In this document: one piece after another, positions 1 through 16,292 of the stretch
Layout of the letters: each line of letters starts with the position of its first letter
Position numbering within the stretch: position 1 is the stretch's first letter
Assembly (NCBI RefSeq): GCF_014697545.1
Contig: NZ_JACJSA010000032.1
Coordinates: 1-51,345 of the forward strand
Direction of reading: 5' to 3'
DNA length: 51,345 nt
Source: Oscillatoria sp. FACHB-1407
Lineage (GTDB): Bacteria; Cyanobacteriota; Cyanobacteriia; Elainellales; Elainellaceae
The notes under the pieces: generated by a model
What the model saw: only the letters and a program-made list of their open reading frames with translations
Told to the model about the DNA's origin: nothing
Database searches by the model: none
Program-made: the position numbers and the translations under genes

Positions 1-1
1 C

Positions 2-952
2 GGCGTGGCTCAGTCCATCGAGTGGGGGCAATTCCTTCATAGCAAAAGCTTACCATCTTCTGTCAAAGCTGGGCTCAGGTCAACCCAGTTGAGCAATTAC
101 GGATCACCTTATGCGAGAGATTATCCTGACTGCTTAGCGATTGTAGAGCAAAAAGTTAAACCTGACAGAATAGTTAACAAATACAGCAAATCCGCTCGTG
201 AAAAATGGTGGCTCTATGAGAGAGCACGACCAGAGCTAAATGCAGCAATTACGGGTTTAACACGAATGTTTGTTATTCCTCGTGTTAGCAAGTTTTTTAC
301 CGTCTCAGTTTCTTCTACAAACGTTGTTGCAAGTGAGGCAACAGTAGTAATTGCCTCAGAATCATTTGCAGATTTCGCACTACTTCAATCCTTATTTCAC
401 CAACTGTGGACATTTTCATATCAAAGCAGCCTTGAAACACGAGGTAGATATACACCTTCTGACTGCTTTGAAACTTTTCCCTTCCCCACACCCGATCCCT
501 CAGACCTCAGCACCCAATTCCCAACCCTCAACGCGATTGGCGAAACCTACTACACCCATCGTCAGGCAGTCATGCGTAATCGGCAGGAAGGGCTGACTAA
601 AACCTACAACCGCTTCCATGATCCCAATGAGACAGCAAATGATATTCAGAAATTGCGAGAGTTGCACATTGAGATGGATCGGGAGGTAGCAAACGCCTAC
701 GGCTGGCAAGACCTCGACTTAGGGCACGATTTCCACACCACTAAACAAGGCATCCGCTTCACCATCAGCGAAACGGCAAGACGCGAAGTGCTCGATCGGT
801 TGTTGGAGTTGAATCATCAACGGTATGCCGAGGAGGTTGCCCAGGGTTTGCACGATAAGAAAAAGGCAAAGGGCAAAGGGCAGAAGGCAAAGGGCAAAGC
901 TCAACCGTCTAAAGTAGACTCAGAGAAACCAATGCAAGGTAGCTTATTTTAA
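2..952 (+). CDS. drmMI: DISARM-type adenine methylase, C-terminal part (DrmMI-like), 5' end outside window
   Basis: The reading frame is open from the first bases, so this is the 3' end of a longer gene; the ATG/GTG codons near position 5 are internal. About 316 residues are visible. They resemble the C-terminal target-recognition and tail region of Eco57I/MmeI-like adenine methylases: a segment ending in a CFETFPFP motif (about residues 157-164), then a helical region (KTYNRFHD, HIEMDREV) and a conserved AYGW(Q)DLDL motif. The catalytic NPPY motif would lie upstream and is not visible. The last 35 residues are Lys/Gly-rich and encoded by a 7-bp tandem repeat. The stop overlaps the next ATG (TAATG), so the gene is in the operon leading to drmA-drmB-drmC. 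That context supports DrmMI, the host-marking methylase of class 1 DISARM. A BREX PglX-type or stand-alone type IIG enzyme is the alternative. Confidence 0.7.
   Translation, partial: GVAQSIEWGQFLHSKSLPSSVKAGLRSTQLSNYGSPYARDYPDCLAIVEQKVKPDRIVNKYSKSAREKWWLYERARPELNAAITGLTRMFVIPRVSKFFTVSVSSTNVVASEATVVIASESFADFALLQSLFHQLWTFSYQSSLETRGRYTPSDCFETFPFPTPDPSDLSTQFPTLNAIGETYYTHRQAVMRNRQEGLTKTYNRFHDPNETANDIQKLRELHIEMDREVANAYGWQDLDLGHDFHTTKQGIRFTISETARREVLDRLLELNHQRYAEEVAQGLHDKKKAKGKGQKAKGKAQPSKVDSEKPMQGSLF
865..899 (+). repeat. 7-bp tandem repeat (GGCAAAG)x5 inside the methylase gene
   Basis: Five heptamers in register: GGCAAAG, GGCAAAG, GGCAGAA, GGCAAAG, GGCAAAG. They encode the Lys/Gly-rich C-terminal tail of the methylase. 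This is the format of cyanobacterial STRR repeats. Because 35 bp is not a multiple of 3, changes in copy number would shift the frame and alter the tail. Confidence 0.85.
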
Positions 953-1863
953 TGAGCTACCAATTTCCGATCTTTGAGGTTCCAGTAGATGCTGCCGAAG
1001 CAGAAGAAGCAATGGGCAGTAGGTTCAAATTCTGGTTCAAGCATCCAGAATTTGGGAACTGTCTCTTTAAGCAAACCCGCTCCAATACAGGTGAAGACTG
1101 GACAGAAAAAATCGCGGCTGAACTGGCTCAATTATTAGGATTGCCTCACGCAACCTACGAACTGGCTGTATGGCGAGGACAAAATGGGGTAATCTCACCG
1201 AATTTCTTACTCGAAAATACTGCACTGATTCATGGCAATGATATTCTCGCTGGCTTGGCATCAAACTATCCCAGAGATCAAGGTTATCGCCTGTCCCAAC
1301 ATACAGTCTCCATTGTTTGTGCAGCCCTCAAAAGACCAGGCTTACAACTCCCGCTCGGCTGGGTTTCACCCCCAGGTATTACTGAAGCCATATCTACTTT
1401 TGTAGGCTACTTGCTCCTAGATGCTTGGATTGGCAATGGCGATCGCCATCACGAAAACTGGGGATTTGTAGTGCGCTTACCAGAGGGAATTCCCCATCTT
1501 GCTCCAACCTATGATCATGCGTCTTGCTTGGGACGGGAATTACTGGATGCCAAACGGCAAGAGAAACTACAGCAGCAAACCGTTAAACAGTACACTGAAA
1601 AATCCAGATCCGCTTTTTATCAGCAGCAGGGTGATAGACGACCAATGCTGACGTTTGATGTCTTTGTAGCGATCGCCCGTCAATATCCCCGATCAGCCAA
1701 GATATGGCTCAACCAATTAGCCAAAATCTCACTACAAGAGGTGAAAGACCTCCTTCAGCAAGTCCCAGGCAGTCGAATCTCTCCAGTTGCTCTAGAATTT
1801 GGATACCAAATGCTCGAAATTAATAGAAGCAGGCTATTGCGCTTACAAAAGGACTTAACTTGA
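952..1863 (+). CDS. HipA-like (HipT-like) serine/threonine kinase
   Basis: A 303-aa protein with the kinase core of the HipA family. The catalytic-loop motif GNGDRHHENWG has Asp164 and Asn169 in place of the HipA ..DxHxxN.. loop. PTYDHASCLG with Asp188 corresponds to the metal-binding DFD/DFG-like motif. An N-terminal stretch (CLFKQTR... WTEKIAAELAQLLGL) matches the ATP-site Lys and following helix of HipA. It lacks the roughly 100-residue N1 subdomain of full-length HipA (about 440 aa), so it looks like a HipT-type core. The start ATG overlaps the methylase stop (TAATG), and its stop overlaps the next start (TTGA), so it is translationally coupled inside the DISARM-like operon. HipA kinases phosphorylate proteins such as glutamyl-tRNA synthetase; the substrate here is unknown. 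No HTH antitoxin (HipB) is encoded beside it. Confidence 0.75.
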   Translation: MSYQFPIFEVPVDAAEAEEAMGSRFKFWFKHPEFGNCLFKQTRSNTGEDWTEKIAAELAQLLGLPHATYELAVWRGQNGVISPNFLLENTALIHGNDILAGLASNYPRDQGYRLSQHTVSIVCAALKRPGLQLPLGWVSPPGITEAISTFVGYLLLDAWIGNGDRHHENWGFVVRLPEGIPHLAPTYDHASCLGRELLDAKRQEKLQQQTVKQYTEKSRSAFYQQQGDRRPMLTFDVFVAIARQYPRSAKIWLNQLAKISLQEVKDLLQQVPGSRISPVALEFGYQMLEINRSRLLRLQKDLT

Positions 1864-2618
1864 AAACCCTATTTCTAGCTTGGCAAGACCCTACCTCCCG
1901 AACCTGGTTTCCAGTCGGGAAGCTGACCTATGAAGAAGGTCTGTATCAATTCAGCTATCTTCAGGGAGCAATCGAAGCCAAAGAAAAGGCAAACTTTCAG
2001 CCTCTCTGGTCATTTCCTGAGTTCTACCATACTTATACTTCTGCCGAACTTTTTCCTCTTTTTGCTAACCGCCTTCTACGTCCTTCCCGTCCCGACTACA
2101 AAGATTTTGTACAGTGGCTTAATATTCCCGAACAACAAGACGACCCAATTGCGCTTCTAGCCCGCAGTGGAGGCAGACGTAAGACTGATAGCTTCGAAGT
2201 TTTTCCCTGCCCAGAGCGAGATGAGCAAGGTAATTATCACATCCATTTCTTTGCCCACGGACTGCGACACTTCCCCGACTCTATTCAGCAGTACGTCCAG
2301 TCTCTTCAGCCCGAAGCTCCATTACTCGTAACCCATGACCTTCAAAACCCAGTTGATTCACGTGCCCTAATCCTAAGAACCGAGGATCTACACTTTGTTG
2401 GTTACTGCCCTCGTTACCTCACCCAAGATGTCTTTGAACTCATCTCCCATTTCCCTAAACAAGTTAGCGTAACTGTAGAGCGCGTAAATCCTCCGCCAAC
2501 ACCGCTCCAATTCCGTTTGCTATGTAGTTTGACTGCTACTTGGTCAGAAGATTTTCAGCCCTTTTCCAGTCCCATTTATCAACCGTTAGCAGAAGAAAAT
2601 TTTGAGGCGATCGCCTGA
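1860..2618 (+). CDS. HipA N1-like domain fused to a HIRAN domain
   Basis: A 252-aa protein starting at a TTG that overlaps the kinase stop by 4 bases. The N-terminal half (about 1-120) resembles the HipA N-terminal subdomain (couple_hipA/HipS): VGKLTYEEGLYQFSY near residue 20, LFANRLL near 70, and DDPIALLARSGG near 100, which matches the DPFxLLxxxG motif of HipA. The C-terminal part (about 150-230) carries a HIRAN signature: LLVTHDLQNPVDSRAL followed by VGYCPRYL. HIRAN modules bind DNA ends or are fused to SNF2 helicases. Together with the preceding gene this looks like a HipA split in two, with the N1 half tethered to a DNA-binding module. By analogy with HipBST, the N1 half could be the antidote (HipS-like); that role is inferred. 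A hypothetical protein with only the HIRAN domain is the minimal reading. Confidence 0.65.
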   Translation: MKTLFLAWQDPTSRTWFPVGKLTYEEGLYQFSYLQGAIEAKEKANFQPLWSFPEFYHTYTSAELFPLFANRLLRPSRPDYKDFVQWLNIPEQQDDPIALLARSGGRRKTDSFEVFPCPERDEQGNYHIHFFAHGLRHFPDSIQQYVQSLQPEAPLLVTHDLQNPVDSRALILRTEDLHFVGYCPRYLTQDVFELISHFPKQVSVTVERVNPPPTPLQFRLLCSLTATWSEDFQPFSSPIYQPLAEENFEAIA

Positions 2619-2698
2619 CCTGAATTACAAGTTACAAAAGTGGCGATCGCAAGATTTTGCGGGTTTACTAGAAAAGGAACCCGGGAAACTGCATCGAA

Positions 2699-4789
2699 AT
2701 GCCCTTTGAGATCATTCATAAGCCCACATTCACCAACCAACTCCTCGCCATCCCCAAAGAGCGAGTCATCCAGATATTAGAAAAGATCGAGGTTTTGCGA
2801 GATGATCCGAAACCTCATGGGAGTTTGAAAAAGAAGCTGCACGGCTATAAGGGAGACATTTACCGCCTCCGTTCTGGCGATTTTCGCATTATCTACACCT
2901 ATGGCGACGGTTGGGTTGCACTTCTGGGCGTTGATGCCCGTAAGGATGTCTATAGAGGTGACAAGCTAGTTGCTGAAGAGACGGAGGTTGATGTCACTCC
3001 TTTTTCCAGGCTCGATGATTTGTTGACCCTTGAAAAAGCCCCTTCTCCTCAACCTAAATCCTCTCAGCCCGACAACCTACTCCCTGTCGAGCTAACTGAA
3101 GATCTGCTCGATCGACTCCTCATCCCCAAAGCTTGCTTTCCTACGCTCCTCGCCTGCCGCACCTTTGATGATTTGCTAGATGCGGTCGTGCCCGATGGGG
3201 TACGCGATCGCCTGTTTGACTGCATCACGGCTCCTAACTTCGACCAGGTTCTCAACCAGCCAAACTTTGTCACGGGCAGTTCCGATGAACTCTTGCGCTT
3301 CAAAGAAGGAGATTTACTAGGATTCTTGCTCAAACTCAACTCTGAGCAGGAGAAATTTGTCACCTGGGCAGTCAACGCAACGGGTCCAACGCTTCTCAAA
3401 GGTGGTCCTGGTACAGGCAAAAGTACTATTGCGCTTTACCGCACCCGTGAGATTCTCAAGCAGCTTCAAGCCACTGGGGTAAGCCAGCCTCGAATTCTCT
3501 TTACGACTTACACCAATGCACTCGTTACCTTCTCTGAACAGTTGCTAGGGCAACTTTTGGGCAAGGATGCTCAGTTTGTAGAAGTAAAGACATCAGATAC
3601 TCCGATGTATTCGTTGATCTGCCAATCCACCGGGAAGCCCAAAATTGCGAACGCTAAGGATTTACTCAAGCTGGTTCAAGAAGCAGTCCCCAAGGCGATC
3701 GCTACCCTGGAAGGCAACGTTCTGCAACAGCAAGCCCAACGGCTCATTCTGCAACGACTCCAGCCAGAATATCTGGTTGAGGAACTGAGCGAAGTCATTG
3801 ACGCTAGAGGGATTGAAACGCTGGAAGATTACCAGGCAACTCCTCGCACAGGTCGCAGCATTGCGCTGAACAAAACTCAGCGTCAAGCGATCTGGAATTT
3901 ACGGCAGCATTTCAATCAATTCTTGGCAAGTCAGGGTTTGGAAACCTGGGCACAAATGCGAAACCGTGCCTTAGCTCTGCTGCAATCACTACCTCAGCCC
4001 CCTGTTTATGATGCCGTCATTGTTGACGAAGCACAGGATCTCAGCCCAACTGTCCTACGATTCCTGGTTCAACTTTGCCGAGAACCGAATCGCCTCTTCA
4101 TTACTGCGGATGCAAACCAATCCATTTACGGCAGCAGTTTTCGCTGGAGTGATGTTCACCAATCGCTAAAGTTCGTCGGACGAACAGGTATTCTCAAAAT
4201 CAACCATCGCACTACTCAAGAAATTGGGGAAGCTGCCTACTCTTACCTCCAAGAAGGCACCCTGGACGAAGACGACAATGAACGCCTCTACATCCATACA
4301 GGTCCATCCCCTGCTGTTCGTGCGATCGAGGATCGAGTCACAGAAGGAAACCTTTTAGCTCAGTTTTGCCGCACCGCTGCCCACGAATTTCGACTGGGAC
4401 TGGGAGCGTGTGCCATCCTGGTTCCATCAGAGAGAGCCGGAAGGAATATCACAGGGCAACTGAACCACATGGGAATTGAAGCTCAGTTCATGAACAGCAA
4501 AGACCTAAAGCTCAAGGGTAAAGGCGTAAAAGTACTGCCGCTCAAAGCTGCAAAAGGTTTAGAGTTCCCCATTGTAGCGATCGCTGGTTTTCTAGAGACC
4601 TCTTATCCCGGAATTACCAAAGGGATGACTCCAGAAGCGGCGGCTGAAATCCTCAACCGAGAACGGCGCACCCTTTATGTTGCTATGACCAGAGCGATGC
4701 GTGCTCTTCTAGTGCTGGTTCCTGCTCAAAAACCCTCTTCGCTCCTGCAAACCTTTGATCCCCAACTTTGGAATCTCGGCAATTCATGA
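2699..4789 (+). CDS. RelE-like domain fused to UvrD/Rep-family (SF1) helicase
   Basis: A 696-aa protein. Residues 1-90 form a RelE/ParE-type fold with the YRLRSGDFRIIYTY core and DARKDVYR end typical of RelE family members. After a Pro/Ser-rich linker (about 105-125) comes an SF1 helicase. It has Walker A GGPGTGKS with Lys241, Walker B VDEAQD with Asp443-Glu444, TADANQSIYG (motif III), INHRTT (motif IV), KAAKGLEF (motif V) and YVAMTRAMRALLVL (motif VI). It is separated from the HIRAN gene by 80 bp that hold a GCGATCGC-type site and a weak purine-rich stretch. Its TGA overlaps the drmA ATG (ATGA). Putative relE-uvrD fusions occur in bacteria, but a helicase of this type is not a standard DISARM part. 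No antitoxin ORF is adjacent, so the RelE-like part may be a ribosome- or RNA-binding module rather than a free toxin. Confidence 0.8.
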   Translation: MPFEIIHKPTFTNQLLAIPKERVIQILEKIEVLRDDPKPHGSLKKKLHGYKGDIYRLRSGDFRIIYTYGDGWVALLGVDARKDVYRGDKLVAEETEVDVTPFSRLDDLLTLEKAPSPQPKSSQPDNLLPVELTEDLLDRLLIPKACFPTLLACRTFDDLLDAVVPDGVRDRLFDCITAPNFDQVLNQPNFVTGSSDELLRFKEGDLLGFLLKLNSEQEKFVTWAVNATGPTLLKGGPGTGKSTIALYRTREILKQLQATGVSQPRILFTTYTNALVTFSEQLLGQLLGKDAQFVEVKTSDTPMYSLICQSTGKPKIANAKDLLKLVQEAVPKAIATLEGNVLQQQAQRLILQRLQPEYLVEELSEVIDARGIETLEDYQATPRTGRSIALNKTQRQAIWNLRQHFNQFLASQGLETWAQMRNRALALLQSLPQPPVYDAVIVDEAQDLSPTVLRFLVQLCREPNRLFITADANQSIYGSSFRWSDVHQSLKFVGRTGILKINHRTTQEIGEAAYSYLQEGTLDEDDNERLYIHTGPSPAVRAIEDRVTEGNLLAQFCRTAAHEFRLGLGACAILVPSERAGRNITGQLNHMGIEAQFMNSKDLKLKGKGVKVLPLKAAKGLEFPIVAIAGFLETSYPGITKGMTPEAAAEILNRERRTLYVAMTRAMRALLVLVPAQKPSSLLQTFDPQLWNLGNS

Positions 4790-7700
4790 AGATCATTAAG
4801 CTTCCATCCATTCTCCCTGGTGACTTAGATTTGTTAGCTGTCAATCAGCAGTTGCGCGATCGCACTGCCGAACTAGATTGGAGTTTGGTTGTGTCAGCGT
4901 CTGAGCAGCATCTGGCTGTATTACTGGCAGGTTTAGATCTCTCTGATGATGCAGAGGTACTGGGCGACAGCACCTTATCGGAAACGATCGCCGCAAAAGT
5001 AGTGCAGGTACTTGAGTCATTACCAGCACAGCCTAAAATCTCTCAACCAAAATCAACTGAATCCAAAGTTACCCCTGCTATCTGGCAATCAGATACTTCA
5101 GGGGAAATGTTAGATACTCACCCTCCTTTTATTCAGGGAGAAGCTGAACTGGAGGGAACACAAGATGCAGATGCGACTGATTTCTCTGTTGGAGAAGGAA
5201 GGAAAAACAGAGGTAAATACCCTGGTTCGGCTCTCCCACGCGGGGAGAAGGGGTTGGGGGATGAGAGGGCAATCCTCGAACCACCCTCCTATTACAAAAT
5301 CCGAGCTGAGCTAGAACAAGCAGTCCTCGCTGATCTCTTAGGTCCGGCGGGGGGAGAGTACGAAGAAGTCGATGAAGCACGAGTGAGCGATCGCTACTTA
5401 GTTGGCTTACTCGCCCCGTTACACCGCCGTAACCGCCCCGACCAACCGGATGACCAGCTAGAACAAACCGATGAACTGGCAGCCGCCAAAACCGGAACGG
5501 TTGAAGAAGGGACAGAACAACTGGATGACCTGGCGATTGGTGGGACAGGTACGATCGACGATGGCGCGACTGAAACGACCAACCCAGCGATCGAAACCAT
5601 GTTTCCCTCCTCACTCGGTATGAGTTTTTGCGTGAGCGGGACTGCCAAAACCATTCGCATCAAAGCAGGATGGGGACAATACGAGCGCACGAAGAGTGAA
5701 TACTGGGAAACACCCACAGGCACACCGAAAACGGTTTGGCGCAGGTATCCAGTGGTGGGGCAATCTCCTCCTATTCCCCTTGAAACGGGTGGAATTGATT
5801 CCTGGCGCATTGACCCAGATCGAGACGTGTATGTGCGGGGGCAGGTTCGCCCTTGTGGAGACGACTGGATTATCAGTTTGTTCTTAGTGAACGAACAGCG
5901 GGAACCGGATCGCTCTCCTGACCAGGCATGGCTATTTCAACCTGAATTGAGCGTTGAGTCTGCCGACCCCAATCAACCCGATATTTTCCTTCGCAAAGCT
6001 CAACAGCGATCGCTCGGCAAACTTGACCCCGTGCAGTATGCCGAAGAACAAGCGATGGAAATGCTCTATCGCCATCAAGTAGAATTTGCCGCTGGGCATG
6101 GAACTGGAGTTCACGCCGAATTAGCCCAGGGCAGTACCGACCGGGCAACTCGTCTTCGGACCTGTGTTGTCCCCACCTACGAAGTTCCCAAAACTGATGC
6201 TCCTACCCCTGACGAAATTCCAGGACTGACAGGACTTGTTCTAGATATGAAGGAGTTAGCCGAGTCTACGGCGACTGACTTGATTGGTAAACTCACTCCC
6301 CTGGTCACAGCTTATGCCGACTGGATTACCCACCAAGCGACTCGTATCACTGATTCAATGGCTAAGTTGCAGGGGTATGAAGCGATCGCTAAAGATACCC
6401 TAGCCAACTGCACCCGCGCATTAGAGCGAATTAGAACAGGTTTAGACCTTCTGCAATCTGATCCACAAGCCTTAGAATCATTCCAATTCATGAATCGGGC
6501 AATGTGGCAGCAGCGGGTTCATTCAATCCTTTCCGAACAGAAACGTCGAGGCGAGGAGGTTGAACTAGACACGGTTGATATTTCTAAAAACCGTTCCTGG
6601 CGACCGTTCCAGCTTGCCTTTATTCTGCTGAACCTGCCTAGCATCACTGACCTAAACCATCCCGATCGCAGCCATGAAACCGAGGCGATCGCCGACTTGC
6701 TCTGGTTCCCAACAGGCGGTGGTAAGACGGAAGCCTATCTGGGACTAACCGCTTACACGATCGGACTCAGGCGATTACAGGGAGTCGTCGCCGGACGCTC
6801 TGGAGAATCGGGTGTTGCCGTTCTCATGCGCTACACACTACGACTCTTAACCCTCCAGCAGTTCCAACGAGCAACTGCCTTAATCTGTGCCTGTGAAGCC
6901 ATCCGCCGGGAGAATCCCGTCAAGTGGGGCAAAGAACCGTTCCGCATCGGCTTGTGGGTGGGTCAGAAAACTACACCCAACCGCACGGAGCAAAGCGAGG
7001 AATTCCTCAAACAAAAGCTGGGGCAGTATCAACCGACTAGCAGTGGCTCTCCTCACCAGCTTACGAATTGCCCCTGGTGTGGCTCTAAGATTGACCCTGG
7101 TAAGCAACACATCAAGGTAGAGTCGTTTGCCAAAGGACAGGCACGCACTCTGATTTACTGTGGGGATGCGCTGGGTCGCTGTCTATTTACTCAAAAACAA
7201 TCACCCACTGAAGGTTTACCAATTCTAGTGGTGGATGAAGAGATTTATCGGCGTTTGCCAACGCTCTTGATCGCAACGGTCGATAAGTTCGCTCAGATGC
7301 CCTGGAATGGGGCGGTTCAAATGCTGTTTGGACAGGTTGAAGGCTATTGTCAGCGGCATGGATTTGTATCCCCCGAATTCCAGAAGGATTGTTCCAGTAG
7401 TCACCTTGCCAAATACGGTCAGCCCCTAGCGAAAACTCTTCCCCACAACCCGTTGCGTCCACCCGATTTGATTATCCAGGACGAGCTACACCTGATTAGT
7501 GGACCGCTGGGAACACTGGTCGGTCTATATGAAACGGCTGTTGATAAGCTTTGTTCCTGGATGGTAGACGGTAAAACCGTTCGTCCCAAAGTCATTGCTT
7601 CAACCGCAACCATTCGCCAAGCTCGCGAACAAATTCATCACCTTTTCCTCCGCCAAGTGCAGGTCTTTCCGCCGCAAGGCTTGGATGTCACCGATAATTT

Positions 7701-8811
7701 CTTCTCCCTCCAGCGCGAACCAAGCGAGGAGTATCCTGGACGGCGCTATCTGGGCATTTGTGCCACAGGACGCAGGCTCAAAGCTGCACTGATTCGGGTT
7801 TACACCGCTGTGCTTGCCGCATCTCAGGCACTTTATGAAAAATATGGGGAAGCCGTTGACCCCTGGATGACAACCGTGGGCTACTTCAACTCCATGCGAG
7901 AGTTAGGCGGGACACGACGACTCGTGGATGACGACATCCAATCACGCTTAGGCAAGATGGATCAACGGGGGTTAGCACGGCGATCGCGCATTGAAGTCAA
8001 AGAACTCACCTCCCGTATCGCCTCCACCGATATTCCCATCGTCCTGGATGCCCTGGAAGTCCCCTTTAACCCAAATCGGGACAAGAAAACTGATCCTCGT
8101 AAACCCATCGACGTGTTGCTGGCAACCAACATGATTTCGGTGGGTGTAGACGTGCGGCGATTAGGCGCGATGGTGGTAACAGGTCAACCGAAGACAACAG
8201 CAGAGTACATTCAGGCGACTTCCCGTGTCGGACGAACCTTTCCCGGTATTGTCTTCACTGTCTATAACTGGGCACGACCCAGAGATTTGTCTCACTACGA
8301 GCAGTTTGAACATTATCACGCCACGTTCTATAAACACGTTGAAGCTCTTTCGGTTACACCGTTTGCCCCGCGTGCGATCGATCGCGGTCTAGCCGCACTA
8401 CTTGTTTCATTGGTGCGATTGAAGGGTGTTGAACTCAACAAAAACGACAAGGCTGGACGAATCGATCGCAATCATCCCTACATTCAAGAAGCCGTTGATG
8501 CGATCGTGACTCGTGCTGCTAATGTCAATGGACCTAAAACAGGAGAACTGGTCAAGCAAGCTCTAGAAACGAAATTAGATTACTGGTTAAGCCAAATTTC
8601 CAAGTTAGAAGGTGGAGCGCAGCTTGGATACCAGTCACAGAAAGATGGAGTAACAAAGGGGTTGCTGGAGCACCCTGATGCTTATGGATTGAAAACCTTC
8701 ACCTGTCTCAATTCCCTGCGAAATGTGGAACCAACGATCGGACTCATCCTCGACGATCGCATTCCTGACGACGACTTTCGTTCTCCCCAACCCATGCCCA
8801 GTTCATCGTGA
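4786..8811 (+). CDS. drmA: DISARM helicase DrmA
   Basis: A 1341-aa SF2-type helicase. The start is the ATG that overlaps the preceding stop (ATGA); an upstream in-frame codon at 4768 lies inside the helicase gene and is unlikely. Walker A is FPTGGGKTEAYLG with Lys647. The DEAD-box-like motif II is DELH at 899-902. Cys pairs at 762/765 and 792/799 suggest a zinc ribbon between them. Motifs V/VI are ATNMISVGVDVRRLGAMVV and EYIQATSRVGRTFPG (about 1110-1160). DrmA is the helicase of all DISARM classes and acts with DrmB in blocking phage DNA. The N-terminal 100-300 residues look non-conserved and contain a palindromic repeat insertion and an acidic degenerate duplication (5459-5560). The stop overlaps or abuts drmB, as expected for the conserved drmAB core. 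Confidence 0.9.
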   Translation: MKIIKLPSILPGDLDLLAVNQQLRDRTAELDWSLVVSASEQHLAVLLAGLDLSDDAEVLGDSTLSETIAAKVVQVLESLPAQPKISQPKSTESKVTPAIWQSDTSGEMLDTHPPFIQGEAELEGTQDADATDFSVGEGRKNRGKYPGSALPRGEKGLGDERAILEPPSYYKIRAELEQAVLADLLGPAGGEYEEVDEARVSDRYLVGLLAPLHRRNRPDQPDDQLEQTDELAAAKTGTVEEGTEQLDDLAIGGTGTIDDGATETTNPAIETMFPSSLGMSFCVSGTAKTIRIKAGWGQYERTKSEYWETPTGTPKTVWRRYPVVGQSPPIPLETGGIDSWRIDPDRDVYVRGQVRPCGDDWIISLFLVNEQREPDRSPDQAWLFQPELSVESADPNQPDIFLRKAQQRSLGKLDPVQYAEEQAMEMLYRHQVEFAAGHGTGVHAELAQGSTDRATRLRTCVVPTYEVPKTDAPTPDEIPGLTGLVLDMKELAESTATDLIGKLTPLVTAYADWITHQATRITDSMAKLQGYEAIAKDTLANCTRALERIRTGLDLLQSDPQALESFQFMNRAMWQQRVHSILSEQKRRGEEVELDTVDISKNRSWRPFQLAFILLNLPSITDLNHPDRSHETEAIADLLWFPTGGGKTEAYLGLTAYTIGLRRLQGVVAGRSGESGVAVLMRYTLRLLTLQQFQRATALICACEAIRRENPVKWGKEPFRIGLWVGQKTTPNRTEQSEEFLKQKLGQYQPTSSGSPHQLTNCPWCGSKIDPGKQHIKVESFAKGQARTLIYCGDALGRCLFTQKQSPTEGLPILVVDEEIYRRLPTLLIATVDKFAQMPWNGAVQMLFGQVEGYCQRHGFVSPEFQKDCSSSHLAKYGQPLAKTLPHNPLRPPDLIIQDELHLISGPLGTLVGLYETAVDKLCSWMVDGKTVRPKVIASTATIRQAREQIHHLFLRQVQVFPPQGLDVTDNFFSLQREPSEEYPGRRYLGICATGRRLKAALIRVYTAVLAASQALYEKYGEAVDPWMTTVGYFNSMRELGGTRRLVDDDIQSRLGKMDQRGLARRSRIEVKELTSRIASTDIPIVLDALEVPFNPNRDKKTDPRKPIDVLLATNMISVGVDVRRLGAMVVTGQPKTTAEYIQATSRVGRTFPGIVFTVYNWARPRDLSHYEQFEHYHATFYKHVEALSVTPFAPRAIDRGLAALLVSLVRLKGVELNKNDKAGRIDRNHPYIQEAVDAIVTRAANVNGPKTGELVKQALETKLDYWLSQISKLEGGAQLGYQSQKDGVTKGLLEHPDAYGLKTFTCLNSLRNVEPTIGLILDDRIPDDDFRSPQPMPSSS
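5221..5271 (+). repeat. Palindromic (REP-like) element inserted in frame in drmA
   Basis: The stretch contains CTCTCCC ACGC GGGGAGA, a GC-rich hairpin, followed by AAGGGGTTGGGGGATGAG. This resembles a dispersed intergenic palindrome seen in many cyanobacterial genomes. Here it is translated as a Gly/Arg-rich segment (about residues 146-162 of DrmA) in a poorly conserved linker. Assignment to a repeat family is from recollection of the pattern, not from a search. Confidence 0.5.
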
Positions 8812-8819
8812 GAGGTTTT

Positions 8820-10691
8820 ATGGCACAAGCACAAACTCGCAATAAAGTCGGTGAACTGCGTCCTAGCCAAATTCTCTTTTCGGCTGGCATTGGCTCTGTG
8901 ATAGATCTGCCCAACCTTTCCACAATGGTGATGGGATTAGATGATTGGGATATTACCCACGCCACAGAACTGGGAGAGGAACGGTTACTTGCAGCCGTGA
9001 AGCGATCGCTCAGTCATTCGGTCAAACGACTGCTGTCACCACCCCTACCCCCTGAATCCGATAGCGTCCCTAATTTACTCGATGAGAGCCAACGTGTTGG
9101 CATTCCAGTATCCCCTTTCCCCACTTGGATGCTCTGTCCAAACTGTCGTCTGCTGGCTCCACTCCAATCCGGACTGTTTGATCTGAAGACCGATCGCTTC
9201 CGTCCCGACCAAAACCGCTATATCCATACCAACTGTCCGAGAGGAAAGTTCCCACCCACCGTGATTCCTGCCCGATTTTTAGTGGCGTGTAAGCATGGGC
9301 ATCTGGACGATTTCCCCTGGCGATATTTCGTTCATCGCGGGGTTGATTGTGGAGGGGGTACATTACGACTGAACGAGTACGGTGTGTCTGGTTCTGCGGC
9401 AGATATTGAAGTGAAATGCGATGGTTGCGGTGCGAATCGCCGGATGTCCGATGCCTTTGGTGAACCGGGCAAGAAGTTTATGCCTCAGTGTCGCGGTCGC
9501 CACGTTCACTTGCGGAATTTTGATGAGGGCGGCTGTGACCAGCAGATGGTGGGTATTTTGCTGGGCGCTTCCAATAGCTGGTTTCCGATAACCCTCTCTG
9601 CCCTCTCGATTCCAACCGCAGTGGATAAGCTGGCGCAGTTAGTTGAGAAGCACTGGACGGTGCTGGAGAAAGCCGTCAGCCTGGAAGTTCTAGCAGCTTT
9701 TCGGCTGATTGGGCAGTTGAAGGAGTTTGCCAAGTATTCAGATGCGGAGCTTTGGGCACAGGTGCAACAAAAGCGATCCGCAACCTCAGATGATGGGGAC
9801 GAGGAGTCAAAGGATATCAAAACTCCAGAATGGCAGATGTTCTCCAATGCTGATACGAGCCTTAACTCGGCAGATTTTTGGCTCACACCTGTTGCCGCGC
9901 CCAAAGGCTACGAGTCTTACTTCAATAAGGTGGTGTTGGTTGAACGATTGCGAGAAGTTCGTGCCCTAGTCGGATTCACCCGCATCGAATCTCCTGGAGA
10001 CTTTGTGGAAACGGGTGAGATTCCCGAAGATTTCTGGGCACCGTTAAGTCGTCAGGAACCAAAATGGGTGCCAGCTACGGAAGTCCGTGGTGAAGGGCTG
10101 TTTATTCAGTTCAGTGAACAGGCGATCGCCCAATGGGAAAACTTGCCTCAACTGAAGGATTACAAGAAGCAGAGCATAGAGGCACATCAGCGTTGGCGCA
10201 CAGCACGTTCCCTTGACCCCAATGCCAATTACCCCGGTGTTCGCTATATTCTCTTGCATTCCTTTGCCCATGCCCTGATGCGACAGTTAGCGATCGAGTG
10301 CGGTTATACCGCAGCCAGTCTGCGGGAGCGGATCTACTCGAAATCTCCTCAAGATGATAACGGACCAATGGCAGGGATTTTGATCTACACTGCTGCCCCC
10401 GATAGTGAAGGCACATTAGGTGGCTTGGTGAGTTTGGGTGAACCTGCTGCCCTCGGTCGCCATATTGATCAGGCATTAGATCAAATGCGACTGTGCGCTT
10501 CCGATCCCTTGTGTGCAGAGCATAGTCCTTTACAGAACCCGAATGTTCTCCATTGGGCTGCCTGCCATGCTTGCCTCTTCAGTCCAGAAACGTCTTGCGA
10601 GCGAGGGAACAAGTATCTCGATCGCACGCTGCTTATTCCAACAGTCAAGACCGAACTATCCTCGATCGCCTTCTTCAAGGATCTGATGTGA
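8820..10691 (+). CDS. drmB: DISARM protein DrmB (DUF1998)
   Basis: A 623-aa protein from the ATG at 8820, chosen because GAGAGG sits 4 nt upstream and the product then begins MAQAQTRNKVGELRPSQ. An in-frame GTG at 8808 overlapping the drmA stop (GTGA) would add four residues. Near the N-terminus, ILFSAGIGSVIDLPNLS is typical of the family. Zinc-type Cys pairs are at 106/109 and 200/203. The C-terminal DUF1998 region has HSFAHALMRQLAIECGY and a Cys cluster (CASDPLC, CHACLF, SCERGN). DrmB partners DrmA in DISARM. The overlapping order drmA-drmB-drmC is the diagnostic core of the system. Confidence 0.9.
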   Translation: MAQAQTRNKVGELRPSQILFSAGIGSVIDLPNLSTMVMGLDDWDITHATELGEERLLAAVKRSLSHSVKRLLSPPLPPESDSVPNLLDESQRVGIPVSPFPTWMLCPNCRLLAPLQSGLFDLKTDRFRPDQNRYIHTNCPRGKFPPTVIPARFLVACKHGHLDDFPWRYFVHRGVDCGGGTLRLNEYGVSGSAADIEVKCDGCGANRRMSDAFGEPGKKFMPQCRGRHVHLRNFDEGGCDQQMVGILLGASNSWFPITLSALSIPTAVDKLAQLVEKHWTVLEKAVSLEVLAAFRLIGQLKEFAKYSDAELWAQVQQKRSATSDDGDEESKDIKTPEWQMFSNADTSLNSADFWLTPVAAPKGYESYFNKVVLVERLREVRALVGFTRIESPGDFVETGEIPEDFWAPLSRQEPKWVPATEVRGEGLFIQFSEQAIAQWENLPQLKDYKKQSIEAHQRWRTARSLDPNANYPGVRYILLHSFAHALMRQLAIECGYTAASLRERIYSKSPQDDNGPMAGILIYTAAPDSEGTLGGLVSLGEPAALGRHIDQALDQMRLCASDPLCAEHSPLQNPNVLHWAACHACLFSPETSCERGNKYLDRTLLIPTVKTELSSIAFFKDLM

Positions 10692-11524
10692 CAACCTTCT
10701 CACCCAATCTGCTGGAACAAGTTCGCCAAGTCACTCAGGAGGTGCCCACCTCAACCTTGGACTCCCTGATTAAAGTTCTCATGGCAGCGGAACAGGGTGA
10801 ACCATTTCAGATGAAACCCAAACTCCTGCAACTCCTGCCCAGAGGATCATGGCGACAGGCGGTGAGCAACCTAGTTGATGTGTGGAAGGCAGAAGCAAGT
10901 GAATTGGATGGGAAAGCAATGGCGATCGCTCTTTCAACGGCTGCTCACTGTCAAGCAAAATTGCGTCAGGAATTATCAGCAGAGTTGGTTTGGACAGGAC
11001 CGAATCCCTCATCCCTTCCAGTGCGGCGAACCGATCAAGCTTTGCTACAACTGATTCGAGCCGCACAGCAGGATCTCCTGATTGTCAGCTTTGCCATTTA
11101 CAACATCCCTGAAATTGTGAAGGCATTAACGGCTGCGATCGATCGAGGCGTTAAGGTTCGCATCATTGCTGAAACGCCAGAAGCAAGCAATGGCAAGATC
11201 GCCTATGGAATGGCAGCCAGCTTTGGTTCTCAACTCCTAAAACGTACTCAGGTCTACATCTGGCATAAAGACAAGCGCCCAGTAGATGAGCAAGGACGAT
11301 ACGGTTCCCTTCATGCCAAATGTGCAGTTTGTGATGGGCAGCATCTGTTCATCTCTAGTGCAAACCTGACTGAATATGCAATGTCACTCAATATCGAGAT
11401 GGGAGTCTTGATTCACAATTTAAGTCTAGCCCATCAAGTAATTGAGCAAATCAATAGTCTGATCTCGAACGGTGATTTAACTCAGTGGGAGAGTTCTGCG
11501 TCATCTTTAGAAGAATTATCATAG
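10688..11524 (+). CDS. drmC: DISARM phospholipase-D-like nuclease DrmC
   Basis: A 278-aa protein from the GTG at 10688, which overlaps the drmB stop (GTGA); longer in-frame extensions run inside drmB. It has one PLD motif, HAKCAVCD (His209, Lys211, Asp216), followed by SSANLTEYAM with the conserved Asn. The N-terminal 110 residues are helical. PLD nucleases with a single HKD motif normally dimerise to build the active site. In DISARM, DrmC is the accessory nuclease and is sometimes dispensable. It closes the operon; the next coding sequence is a transposase. Confidence 0.85.
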   Translation: MTTFSPNLLEQVRQVTQEVPTSTLDSLIKVLMAAEQGEPFQMKPKLLQLLPRGSWRQAVSNLVDVWKAEASELDGKAMAIALSTAAHCQAKLRQELSAELVWTGPNPSSLPVRRTDQALLQLIRAAQQDLLIVSFAIYNIPEIVKALTAAIDRGVKVRIIAETPEASNGKIAYGMAASFGSQLLKRTQVYIWHKDKRPVDEQGRYGSLHAKCAVCDGQHLFISSANLTEYAMSLNIEMGVLIHNLSLAHQVIEQINSLISNGDLTQWESSASSLEELS

Positions 11525-11748: not shown

Positions 11749-11819
11749 AGCACCGGTCATGTAGTGCCAGAATGCCATAACCCTGGTATAAGGACAGAAA
11801 AGCGTTGAGAGGAAAACCA

Positions 11820-12653
11820 ATGCGACCAGAGTTATGGCATCCCCCAACTGAGTTGTCCGCTGCCGAGCAAAAGATTGTGAAGCTGATCAAGCGGGCAAAA
11901 TTATTTGTGTTTCTGCGCCAGAACCGACACGAACTGTTTGATGATGAATTTCAACACGCCTTAGCGCAGATGTATGCGGATAAACCGAAAGGGCATCCCC
12001 CCATTGCTCCCGCGTTGTTGTGTTTAGCCATCATCTTGCAAGCCTACACTGGCGCATCGGATGACGAAGCCATAGAAGCGTTGGTCATGGATCGGCGGTG
12101 GCAGTTGGTGCTCGATTGCCTTGATTGTGAGCAAGCCCCGTTTGCCAAGGGAACGTTGGTGGAGTTCCGTGCCTTACTGATTCACCATGAGATGGATCGG
12201 CTGTTAGTGGAGCGCACCATTACTCTGGCGCAAAAACGAGGCGGATTTAGCAGCCGCAGTTTAAGAGCAGCACTGGATTCCAGTCCCTTATGGGGTGCTG
12301 GGAAAGTGGAAGATACCTACAATCTATTGGGACACGCTTTGAGAAAGGCATTAAGCGTGATTGCTCGTCAACAGGGGCGGGAGTTGACGGAAATTGCGAC
12401 GGCAGCAGGTGCACCGATGCTGGGGGCATCCAGTGTGAAGGTTGCACTGGATTTGAACTGGGATGACCCACAGGAACGCCAAGTTGCCTTGGCATTGACC
12501 TTGCAAGCCCTGACGCAGGTCGAGACCTGGGTTGCGGAGCAAGCGTTGCCACCCTCATCGGCTCTAACCCAACCAGTCCAGCAGAGTTTGTCAGTCGCTC
12601 AACAAATTGTCGCTCAGGACGTGGAAACCAGCGAAACGGCCGTGTCCAACTGA
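11820..12653 (+). CDS. IS1182-like transposase, N-terminal part
   Basis: 277 residues from the ATG at 11820, chosen for the GAGAGG seven bases upstream. The DUF772-like region (HPPIAPALLCLAIILQAYTG, SDDEAIEALVMDRRWQLVLD) is followed by the first catalytic-domain segment (RAALDSSPLWGAGKVEDTY), which carries the first acidic residue. The frame ends at 12653 where the homology should continue, and the next ORF holds the rest in the -1 frame. Either programmed frameshifting or a 1-base indel between about 12620 and 12655 is needed for a full enzyme. No canonical slippery heptamer is obvious, so a defective copy is as likely. Confidence 0.75.
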   Translation: MRPELWHPPTELSAAEQKIVKLIKRAKLFVFLRQNRHELFDDEFQHALAQMYADKPKGHPPIAPALLCLAIILQAYTGASDDEAIEALVMDRRWQLVLDCLDCEQAPFAKGTLVEFRALLIHHEMDRLLVERTITLAQKRGGFSSRSLRAALDSSPLWGAGKVEDTYNLLGHALRKALSVIARQQGRELTEIATAAGAPMLGASSVKVALDLNWDDPQERQVALALTLQALTQVETWVAEQALPPSSALTQPVQQSLSVAQQIVAQDVETSETAVSN

Positions 12654-12661
12654 AGCGTGGC

Positions 12662-13402
12662 GTGAGCAAGGATCGTCGCATTAGCATTGAGGATGCTCAG
12701 ATGCGGCATGGTCGGAAGAGTAAGCACCAACGAGTTGATGGATACAAACGCCATCTGCTGAGTGATTTGGATTGCGGCCTGATCCGTGCGGTTGGCGTGA
12801 CGCCTGCTAATCGTCCAGAAGCTAGTGTGACGGATGCACTCAGCCTCGACATCAAGCAGCAACAGGTGCAATTGAGTGAACTCTACATTGACCGAGCCTA
12901 TCTCAGCAGTTCCTGGGTTAAGCAAAGACCGCCTGAGTTGACCATTTACTGTAAAGCCTGGCCCGTTCGGAGCCGCACCAACCAATTCCCCAAAACCGCC
13001 TTTACCTTGGACTGGGACGCGGAGACGCTGACCTGCCCCAATCAAGTTCAGATGCCGTTACGCTTGGGTAAAACCATTCACTTTCCCAAAGCTCGTTGTG
13101 CGGCTTGTCCCTTCAAAGAGCAATGCACCAGCAGTAAACAGGGGCGTAGCGTCACCATTCATCCCGATGAACAGTTCCTCAACGAACTGCGACAACGCCA
13201 GTTATCCCCGCAAGGACGAACCAAATTGCGAGAACGAACCGCTGTCGAACATGCCCTGGCTCATGTCGGGCATTGGCAAGGCGATCGGGCTCGTTACATT
13301 GGGCTGCGGAAAAACCTTTTTGATCTGCGTCGCATGGCGATCATTCATAATCTCCATGTCATTGCCAGACTAGCTGATGCTCCTCAACCCCAAGCAAGTT
13401 GA
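12662..13402 (+). CDS. IS1182-like transposase, C-terminal DDE part
   Basis: 246 residues beginning near SKDRRISIEDAQMRHGRKS, a conserved stretch of this family normally internal to one long transposase. Next come YIDRAYLSS (second Asp), a Cys cluster (CAACPFKEQC) and the ERTAVEHALAHVGHWQG segment with the catalytic Glu region. The upstream frame stays open to about 12620, so a -1 shift from the first ORF would join the two into a roughly 500-aa protein. Independent expression from the GTG at 12662 would give no N-terminal domain. Confidence 0.75.
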   Translation: MSKDRRISIEDAQMRHGRKSKHQRVDGYKRHLLSDLDCGLIRAVGVTPANRPEASVTDALSLDIKQQQVQLSELYIDRAYLSSSWVKQRPPELTIYCKAWPVRSRTNQFPKTAFTLDWDAETLTCPNQVQMPLRLGKTIHFPKARCAACPFKEQCTSSKQGRSVTIHPDEQFLNELRQRQLSPQGRTKLRERTAVEHALAHVGHWQGDRARYIGLRKNLFDLRRMAIIHNLHVIARLADAPQPQAS

Positions 13403-13861: not shown

Positions 13862-14671
13862 TCAAGTGAGTGAGGGAGATCGCGCTTGGGCAGACTGCTT
13901 GCGGTAGCTCTCGGCTTGAATATCAATAATGAGGGCATGATGGACCAGCCTATCGACCGCTGCGACCGTCATCATCGAGTCAGCAAAGATTGTATCCCAC
14001 TGACTAAACGGTTGGTTGGCCGTAATGAGCAAACTCTTGCGCTCATAACGATGGGCAATGAGTTCAAACAACACACTGGTTTCCGCTTCCGACTTTTTGA
14101 CATAACCTAAGTCATCGAGGACGATCAAGTCAAAGCGGTCGAGTTTTTTGAGGGCCGCTTGCAGTTGTAAGTGCAGCTTTGCCTGCTGCAGGTGTTGCAC
14201 CAGGGCGATAGCGGAAAAGAACTTGACGCGTTTACCAAACTCCACCATGGAGCGAGCAATGGCGGCAGCGATATGGGTTTTGCCAACGCCTGAAGCCCCA
14301 AAAATGAGGCAATTGTCTGAGCGTGCTAACCAGGAGGGGTCTTCTGCGAGTTGCCGGATGGGTGCAGGATTAAGCTTGGGCACATGGGACCAATCAAAGT
14401 TGGAGAGGGTTTTGCCGGTTGGCAGTTGCGCTTCTGAGAGGGCACGTTTGAGCCAACTTTGCCAGCGATGGTGTACCTCCGATTCGCACAGTTGCAGCAA
14501 GAACTGGGCGTAGGACCACCCCTCCTGCATCGCTTGTTGTTCGAGGCTTTCCCAATGGTTGAGCATATGACAGAGGTGCAGGCGTTTGAGGTGCAGGCTG
14601 AGGCTTTGGTAGGGGCTGACGGGAGGGTGGGTCGTTGTGGTTGCTGGGGTGGGTGGGCAGGAGTTGGTCAT
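13862..14671 (-). CDS. istB: IS21 helper ATPase IstB
   Basis: A 269-aa AAA+ ATPase. Walker A is FGASGVGKTHIA (about residues 124-135), Walker B is FDLIVLDDLGYV, and the family motif ITANQPFSQWDTIF follows. IstB aids IstA in target selection and strand transfer. The first 20 residues are Pro/Thr-rich and overlap the istA frame, so the true start could be further downstream. It is transcribed with istA, which overlaps it by 278 bp in another frame. Confidence 0.9.
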   Translation of the reverse strand: MTNSCPPTPATTTTHPPVSPYQSLSLHLKRLHLCHMLNHWESLEQQAMQEGWSYAQFLLQLCESEVHHRWQSWLKRALSEAQLPTGKTLSNFDWSHVPKLNPAPIRQLAEDPSWLARSDNCLIFGASGVGKTHIAAAIARSMVEFGKRVKFFSAIALVQHLQQAKLHLQLQAALKKLDRFDLIVLDDLGYVKKSEAETSVLFELIAHRYERKSLLITANQPFSQWDTIFADSMMTVAAVDRLVHHALIIDIQAESYRKQSAQARSPSLT

Positions 14672-16142: not shown

Positions 16143-16292
16143 TATTGGCGTCTCCTTTTCCACAGGAATTGCCCAATAGTGTCTTTCTGTTTGGAGGCAC
16201 GGTTTGCACTCTAGACTGCAATTTGCGATCTCAATAATGCAAGATGACAACCCGCCAAGGGCATCGCCGTCGCCCGTCATCTGCATTGTCAC

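Follow-up and report, generated by a model that had tools for sequence, protein, structure and literature searches.

The first 11,524 bases of the window, as we call the whole 51,345-nucleotide stretch of Oscillatoria sp. FACHB-1407 analyzed here (contig NZ_JACJSA010000032.1, C32 in our numbering, in which C, G, and L mark contigs, genomes, and loci), carry seven genes on the + strand. They form an operon of DISARM (defense island system associated with restriction-modification) of the class 1 type, in a variety that bears a gene for a RelE-UvrD fusion protein directly upstream of drmA. That gene, its link to an N-terminal domain of DrmA, and a kinase/HIRAN pair, hipIN, lying ahead of it are the subjects of this text. 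Open reading frames (ORFs) and family scans confirmed the seven codirectional genes and the domains that an earlier note on this DNA, made from the letters alone, had named in them; the four that it had recognized as DISARM parts are drmMI, drmA, drmB, and drmC. Since the contig, from a genome of 8.13 Mb, begins inside drmMI, with base 1 of the window as its first base, the methylase ORF is truncated, and the GTG at position 5 is not its true start. The features are as follows (aa, amino acids).

5 to 952, + strand: drmMI, 3' part, encoding the C-terminal 315 aa of a IIG-like adenine methyltransferase of about 1350 aa; the contig start cuts the gene.
952 to 1863, + strand: hipI, short HipA-like Ser/Thr kinase (PADLOC PDC-M03A, HipA_C).
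1860 to 2618, + strand: hipN, HipS-like (HipA N-terminal) domain followed by HIRAN, a putative antitoxin/sensor (PADLOC PDC-M03B, Pfam HIRAN).
2699 to 4789, + strand: relE-uvrD, RelE-like head plus superfamily 1 (SF1) helicase of the PcrA/UvrD type (profile, AlphaFold2, Foldseek).
4786 to 8811, + strand: drmA, short type (DrmAS), YprA-family helicase (NF038325, 7s9v alignment).
4786 to 5025, + strand: N-terminal DrmA domain of about 80 residues, weakly STAS-like (co-occurrence with relE-uvrD, STAS_2 in relatives, VIA).
8820 to 10691 (alternative start GTG 8808), + strand: drmB, MZB/DUF1998 (NF038324, Pfam MZB).
10688 to 11524 (start GTG 10688; listed ORF from 10553), + strand: drmC, phospholipase-D-like nuclease (NF038319, PLDc_2).

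The core genes left little doubt about the type of system. The drmMI product matched the PADLOC DrmMI model (E value of 3.3e-95) over positions 1084 to 1339 of 1347, that is, in its C-terminal part only, and shares 65% identity with the C-terminal region of the complete DrmMI from a second DISARM copy in the same genome (contig C13). DrmA reached 1448 bits against NF038325 (DISARM_DrmAS; cut-off, 950), and the structure of Serratia DrmA (7s9v) aligned to its residues 172 to 1336; DrmB scored 711 bits against NF038324 (cut-off, 240; Pfam MZB, 3e-11), and DrmC scored 244.5 bits against NF038319 (cut-off, 133; PLDc_2, 4.6e-23). Of the components of class 1 DISARM (DrmMI, DrmA, DrmB, DrmC, and often DrmD), the window shares drmMI, drmA, drmB, and drmC; drmD lies 5' of drmMI in a relative (L104), and the corresponding stretch falls beyond the contig start. 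What the window adds to class 1 DISARM, and to the Serratia system of 7s9v, is relE-uvrD 5' of drmA, a DrmA head of about 80 residues, and cargo between drmMI and drmA.

Reading the DNA base by base, we found overlaps at four junctions: the drmMI stop and hipI ATG share 1 nucleotide (TAATG, 950 to 954), and overlaps of 4 nucleotides join the hipI stop to the hipN TTG (1860 to 1863), the relE-uvrD stop to the drmA ATG (ATGA, 4786 to 4789), and the drmB stop to the drmC GTG (10688 to 10691). The earlier note had seen overlaps everywhere except between hipN and relE-uvrD, where there is indeed a gap of 80 nucleotides; for drmA and drmB, however, this requires the GTG start at 8808, whereas the ATG at 8820, corresponding to the start of the drmB ORF as listed in the C13 copy, leaves a gap of 8 nucleotides. 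Overlapping junctions do not by themselves tie these genes into a single unit, for stand-alone hipIN pairs lying away from any DISARM gene (L087, L088, and L089) overlap by 4 nucleotides as well.

RelE-UvrD consists of a RelE-like head (residues 1 to 85, approximately) and an SF1 helicase (approximately residues 209 to 675). A profile built from 28 relatives matched archaeal RelE (1wmi) over residues 1 to 85 with an E value of 7.7e-9 and PcrA (1pjr) with one of 6.6e-33, and an AlphaFold2 model (mean predicted local distance difference test score [pLDDT], 81.5) retrieved UvrD (2is6) in Foldseek at 8e-21. A close relationship to GajB was considered and rejected, the fit to PcrA/UvrD being far superior to that to GajB (7.8e-8). 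Pfam ParE_toxin stayed below its cut-off (0.023). The RelE-type residues R56, R58, R63, and R81, which we take as counterparts of residues catalytic in E. coli RelE, are retained in 26 to 27 of the 27 DISARM-linked proteins covering the region; with RelE-type sequence and residues present, RNase activity is putative.

Among 292 genomes of the phylum, the five closest relE-uvrD genes (at least 64% identity) were those of the window, the C13 copy, G185, G005, and G153. The first four lie directly 5' of drmA, although in G005 drmA is shortened and no DrmB match was found; in G153, relE-uvrD ends at a contig edge and drmA opens the edge of another contig, from which we infer adjacency. A DrmA-centered scan of genome contigs, covering the best 80 of 297 relatives, placed relE-uvrD 5' of drmA at 26 loci (absent from 31; 23 unjudged), within about 330 nucleotides at 24 of them and with a 4-nucleotide overlap at many. 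Such loci span Cyanobacteriota, Chloroflexota (L130, L131, and L146), and deltaproteobacteria (L151 and L154). Pairwise distances of RelE-UvrD and DrmA correlated with an r of 0.909 (27 loci), compared with 0.969 for DrmA and DrmB (28 loci) and 0.80 for DrmA and DrmMI (15 loci). relE-uvrD is, in short, a regular DISARM partner that recurs 5' of drmA more often than chance would give. At one locus (L125), a 142-bp remnant of a relE-uvrD 5' end (4043 to 4184; 74%), matching the intact gene at 7914 to 8055 of the locus, lies upstream of that gene, with an ORF of 917 codons between the two.

DrmA proteins adjoining relE-uvrD open with about 80 extra residues that are missing from many other DrmA proteins. 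In a first set of 86 proteins, of which 63 could be judged (the 23 unjudged for relE-uvrD all belong to the 80 scan loci), 30 had both the domain and relE-uvrD, 26 had neither, 7 had only the domain, and none had only relE-uvrD; five loci of this set (L003, L220, L229, L066, and L067) were chosen rather than drawn, L220 and L229 because they carry hipIN. At the 26 loci with neither, the reading frame closes 0 to 63 codons upstream of the start of the match, and the domain is therefore truly absent. A second sample, from 350 Chloroflexota genomes, comprised 24 of 54 listed places (full-length matches, minus two known genomes and two places at contig edges) and the second DrmA copy of G564. Of these 25 loci, 9 encode the domain, all with relE-uvrD upstream, and 12 lack it and have at least 5 kb of upstream sequence, none with relE-uvrD; 4 remained unjudged. 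No locus of the second sample is identical to one of the first, the L252 locus being 89 to 91% identical to L130. Both states occur within G564, where the domain and relE-uvrD are present together in one copy (L151) and missing together from another (L273). When the two samples are pooled, the 84 judged loci comprise 39 with both, 38 with neither, 7 with the domain only, and 0 with relE-uvrD only. A scan of viral contigs with DrmA returned 12 loci, with every match starting at query residue 161 or later.

A related arrangement was found outside DISARM. More distant RelE-UvrD fusions (31 to 39% identity) lie directly 5' of YprA-like helicases at loci that we label ARMADA-like, on the basis of DruE models matched by the helicases of L099 and L101 and of Pfam domains (DEAD, Helicase_C, and MZB) and neighbors for those of the plasmid loci L185 and L186; at L099, the label takes no account of whether an SNF2 helicase or a methylase lies upstream. 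A head similar to that of DrmA is present on these helicases just 3' of RelE-UvrD (hhalign probability of 93.5 and E value of 2.3e-7 in a single comparison), and an hmmsearch among 7 proteins gave E values of 1.2e-6 to 0.044 for the four of them. The top DruE3 matches start no earlier than residue 119 in L101 and residue 150 in L099, so the head seems to be an extra on the ARMADA-like helicases, too.

In ARMADA type II (ArmA to ArmD), the RelE-UvrD protein ArmD is essential, and the system is reported to be nonabortive (Bell et al. 2025, preprint, PMC12458937; this and the other articles cited are represented here by the parts consulted). The window resembles it in having a RelE-UvrD fusion beside a YprA-family helicase and a PglX/DrmMI-like methylase. 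Its YprA helicase, however, is DrmA, with separate DrmB and DrmC, and not a DruE-like protein with a fused nuclease; the only DruE model listed for the window DrmA reached an E value of 0.026. Gene order differs as well, with relE-uvrD preceding the YprA helicase in the window and armD almost always following it in ARMADA type II (PMC12458937), and the helicase part of the window protein is nearer to PcrA/UvrD, whereas ArmD, compared here by its description, is called GajB-like in the same preprint.

RelE-UvrD fusions keep other company as well. On a plasmid of Deinococcus sp. NW-56 (L187, 5512 to 14227), one lies between a gene annotated as brxC and an N-6 DNA methylase, a context from which the helicase may join BREX (bacteriophage exclusion), too. 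At two loci from two genomes of one family (L102, 7559 to 11970; L103, 9576 to 13870), RelE-UvrD precedes a Ser/Thr kinase that also has a phosphonate-binding-protein-like domain, possibly a separate system; the suspicion that these kinases carry the same N-terminal domain as DrmA was dropped (hhalign E value of 0.38). L100 has RelE-UvrD near a STAND NTPase, and L188 has no evident partner.

As to what the DrmA head might be, modeling points weakly to a STAS-like domain. Pfam STAS_2 was found in 7 of 33 proteins with the domain (best E value, 0.0016) and not in that of the window; a search of the PDB with the domain profile returned only three entries, a hemolysin activator and two helical barrels of designed origin; we took these as chance matches, and 7s9v was not among them. 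The AlphaFold2 model of the domain (pLDDT, 77.5) gave no significant Foldseek match (best E value, 0.8). In a VIA comparison with 228 chains, STAS domains came out on top, RsbV with a Z score of 4.9 (74 aligned residues; root mean square deviation, 3.5), a value that may reflect merely a common fold arrangement. A STAS domain in immune operons is described for CapK-CapS, of which a derivative controls a VapC-like RNase toxin (PMC13373217); CapS, however, is a separate repressor, whereas in the window the weakly STAS-like domain forms the N-terminal end of DrmA.

Upstream of relE-uvrD, the kinase/HIRAN pair agrees in gene order, size, and domains with the hipIN module known since 2021, in which the HipI kinase precedes HipN, a protein that combines a HipS-like domain with HIRAN (Gerdes et al. 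2021, PMC8262856), and by these features we identify the pair as hipIN. The window pair differs in being embedded in DISARM, a context not named for hipIN in the parts consulted of that article, which proposes that HIRAN may sense phage DNA ends, leading to abortive infection. The window HipI (303 aa) lacks the N-terminal subdomain; it matched PADLOC PDC-M03A at 9.7e-115, Pfam HipA_C at 7.8e-7 (29.4 bits, slightly below the cut-off of 30.5), and, in the PDB, CtkA (3akj) at 0.0017. D164-R165-H166 and N169, presumably the catalytic kinase residues, are invariant across 23 HipI sequences. HipN matched PDC-M03B (2.2e-99) and HIRAN (2e-6, above the cut-off), with Couple_hipA below its cut-off (0.015) and no match in a PDB sequence search. 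The PADLOC candidate name PDC-M03 was not found in the literature searched.

In the 292 phylum genomes, 13 strong HipI places were detected, of which only that of the window was seen near DISARM; some of the other 12 lie on short contigs, and several stand amid apparent housekeeping genes, as judged by eye. A sample of 388 genomes of the class contained 32 HipN places in 30 genomes. Six of these lie between drmMI and drmA: the window, L220, L221 (the same locus as L138), L224, L227 (the same locus as L109; hipN only), and L229 (hipI in two pieces). At 14 of the 32, equal to 14 of the 21 judged, at least 6 kb on either side showed no DISARM match. The other 11 were left unjudged on account of contig ends, short stretches, or stretches not fetched; one of them (L219) has neighbors that look slot-like by eye on a stretch that ends before any drmA. 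L238 has a hipN fragment beside drmMI, with no drmA on the stretch read. Hence, when asked whether its homologues keep to the neighborhood of drmAB, as the earlier note had suggested checking, hipN gives a divided answer: it is found mostly away from DISARM, yet its 6 places in one and the same slot far exceed the roughly 0.01 expected from random placement, a rough estimate based on DrmB matches in 25 of the 292 genomes.

In the HipN tree, the DISARM-linked proteins fall inside one clade of 14 (support, 98/99), mixed with 7 stand-alone proteins and L219; the well-supported branches cannot be reconciled with fewer than four changes between inside and outside. hipIN has therefore probably entered or left the slot several times. 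Two simpler views were abandoned along the way: that DISARM-linked HipN proteins form a single clade, which held with 3 sequences (98/94) and failed with 6 among 32, and that hipIN is incidental, which fitted the single DISARM place of the first sample until the DrmA scan and the class sample added more. In sum, hipIN is a recurrent but optional, exchangeable cargo of a fixed slot. A fragmented hipI next to an open hipN was seen at L229 (8705 to 9616; inside DISARM), L225 (10374 to 10834), and L232 (1901 to 2838), a pattern expected if the partner outlives the toxin.

These separations bear directly on the proposal that the three extra genes belong together as a single module dedicated to DISARM, acting jointly as an abortive-infection arm. 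The window and L220 share the order hipI-hipN-relE-uvrD-drmA-drmB-drmC after drmMI, and the genes are closely spaced. However, among the 26 scan loci with relE-uvrD, hipN was seen at just 1 (4 were too short to tell), hipIN occurs without relE-uvrD at L221/L138, two-thirds of the judged hipN places (14 of 21) have no DISARM gene, and the C13 copy of the same genome has relE-uvrD without hipIN. The one-module reading is thereby largely refuted, and we consider it very improbable. Of the distinct DISARM subtype that the earlier note had envisaged, the part concerning relE-uvrD stands (26 of 80 loci, with the DrmA head tracking it in two samples), but not the fixed set of three genes. Asking for absence in close relatives splits the trio in the same way: with a DrmB 98% identical to that of the window, the C13 copy lacks hipIN and keeps relE-uvrD. 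By analogy, ARMADA type II with its ArmD, which among tested systems is the nearest and is reported to be nonabortive (PMC12458937), speaks against an abortive arm for relE-uvrD.

The slot itself is variable. Whenever hipIN is inside DISARM, it lies between drmMI and relE-uvrD or drmA; of the 33 judged loci without relE-uvrD, 10 have fewer than 500 nucleotides between drmMI and drmA. Elsewhere the slot holds genes for an ApeA-like HEPN protein (L128), GmrSD (L179, L181, and L163), PemK (L138), DUF4365 proteins (L107 and L109), or sacsin-domain and macro-domain proteins (G185), and at L224 genes for SNF2, an acetyltransferase, and RNase III accompany hipIN. In the C13 copy (L003, 9745 to 18534, and L004, 1 to 19947), whose RelE-UvrD is 87% identical to that of the window, sacsin-domain, SNF2, GmrSD, and RNase III genes lie between drmMI and relE-uvrD. 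An opposite-strand gene for an FAD oxidoreductase (Amino_oxidase family) stands directly 5' of relE-uvrD there. Partial copies of the drmMI 3' end were found in the slots of L105 (1298 to 1703 and 3649 to 4034, 86 to 89% identical, with 319 bp at 89%) and L184 (56 to 222, 2544 to 2747, 4093 to 4287, and 5200 to 5309; 88 to 95%). Such repeats suggest recombination at this place, and this suggests that cargo may be swapped by recombination at the drmMI end.

We favor, with a probability of roughly 0.6, the reading that these operons have a relE-uvrD-bearing DISARM chassis in which RelE-UvrD docks on the DrmA head and to which exchangeable cargo of the hipIN type is added. Several points weigh against it. 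Seven cyanobacterial DrmA proteins have the domain without relE-uvrD. On the DrmA tree, which was drawn without 4 of the proteins, independent pairs number only 3 on supported branches and 6 on all branches; all pairings are concordant, but with a P value of 0.25, and 0.05 is out of reach with 3 pairs. The RelE-UvrD tree, which excludes 3 truncated proteins, splits off the DISARM-linked proteins at a branch with a support of only 43, and there are long branches among the others. The DISARM-linked head of L151 lacks R58, R63, and R81, and RelE catalysis may therefore not always be needed; with hipI split (L229) or missing (L227) at 2 of the 6 hipN-bearing DISARM loci, the kinase, too, is not always retained. 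The likeness of the head to STAS is weak (Foldseek E value of 0.8, Z scores of at most 4.9, and Pfam below the cut-off). Finally, adjacent DNA encoding the domain and RelE-UvrD could travel as a block without any interaction of the products.

The last point is the core of an alternative that we regard as unlikely for relE-uvrD, namely, that genes merely cluster in a defense island, with relE-uvrD and hipIN functionally unlinked and the DrmA domain carried along in a contiguous recombining block. That the slot houses several unrelated defense-type genes, that partial drmMI repeats attest to recombination in it, that RelE-UvrD elsewhere has other neighbors (a brxC-annotated gene, Ser/Thr kinases, or a STAND NTPase) or none that looks like a partner, and that only 3 independent pairs are supported would all fit. 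Less easily accommodated are the in-frame fusion of the domain to DrmA and its presence at every one of the 39 judged relE-uvrD loci, the similar head on a different helicase clade just 3' of RelE-UvrD, and the high correlation between RelE-UvrD and DrmA distances. For hipIN, this alternative comes close to being the best explanation.

The toxin-like character of the RelE head, with its retained residues, and the position of its gene ahead of that of the partner, with a 4-nucleotide overlap at many loci, raise the question of whether RelE-UvrD might be a toxin and the DrmA head its antitoxin, so that damage to or displacement of DrmA by a phage would free RelE and stop translation. There is a published case of a VapC-like RNase toxin under the control of a STAS-protein/kinase pair (PMC13373217), so an antitoxin role of the DrmA head is possible. 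On the other hand, ARMADA type II, with the same kind of protein, is reported to be nonabortive (PMC12458937), 7 loci have the domain without relE-uvrD, and the toxicity of RelE-UvrD is purely putative. We think such a guard function quite unlikely, a little more so than mere clustering.

Returning to the docking of RelE-UvrD on the DrmA head, the associations alone are demonstrated, and for the mechanism we infer the following course. DrmAB would load onto phage DNA bearing a single-stranded 5' end, in the manner of Serratia DrmAB, in which a trigger loop blocks the complex and such DNA opens it (PMC9142583). The N-terminal domain of DrmA would dock RelE-UvrD, either restraining the RelE head or recruiting it to the complex, and the UvrD motor would aid translocation on, or unwinding of, the engaged phage DNA, upon which nucleases could act (DrmC, which is apparently nonessential according to PMC9142583, or others). 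The RelE head might cleave translated mRNA locally or only once activated. hipIN, when in the slot, would form a second, independent arm, with HipN keeping HipI inactive until HIRAN meets free DNA ends and HipI then halting growth. The operon would then consist of a chassis (methylase, DrmAB, and RelE-UvrD) and exchangeable second-line cargo. A bolder extension, tentative and in our estimate doubtful, is that RelE-UvrD and a YprA helicase with a docking head are a transferable two-gene engine of DISARM and ARMADA-like systems, the head being a specific dock/antitoxin and engagement of phage DNA switching on both the UvrD motor and the RelE nuclease, while recombination at the drmMI 3' end brings second-line toxins (hipIN, ApeA, GmrSD, and PemK) into the slot between drmMI and drmA.

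The hipIN module itself and the RelE-UvrD fusion, as ArmD, were already known. No description of relE-uvrD or hipIN inside DISARM was found in the literature searched, which covered few subscription journals and some articles in part; as far as that literature shows, the link between relE-uvrD and the DrmA head and the role of hipIN as DISARM cargo are new. For the destruction of phage DNA by DISARM, relE-uvrD offers a candidate missing component that can be tested in a large group of DISARM operons; as a helicase additional to DrmA, with an RNase-like head and a tie to a specific DrmA domain, its product links DISARM directly to ARMADA. Free DNA ends could trigger a response from the HIRAN domain of the kinase pair as well as from DrmAB. 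The variable slot suggests that DISARM is a platform taking in other defense genes and, as a general rule, that defense operons bear an exchangeable backup arm.

Downstream of drmC, the window continues with a transposase in two adjoining ORFs (11805 to 12653, DUF772, and 12662 to 13402, DDE_Tnp), followed on the - strand by an IS21-type insertion sequence pair consisting of IstB (13862 to 14671) and an ORF with a Mu-transpos_C_2 match (14394 to 16292).

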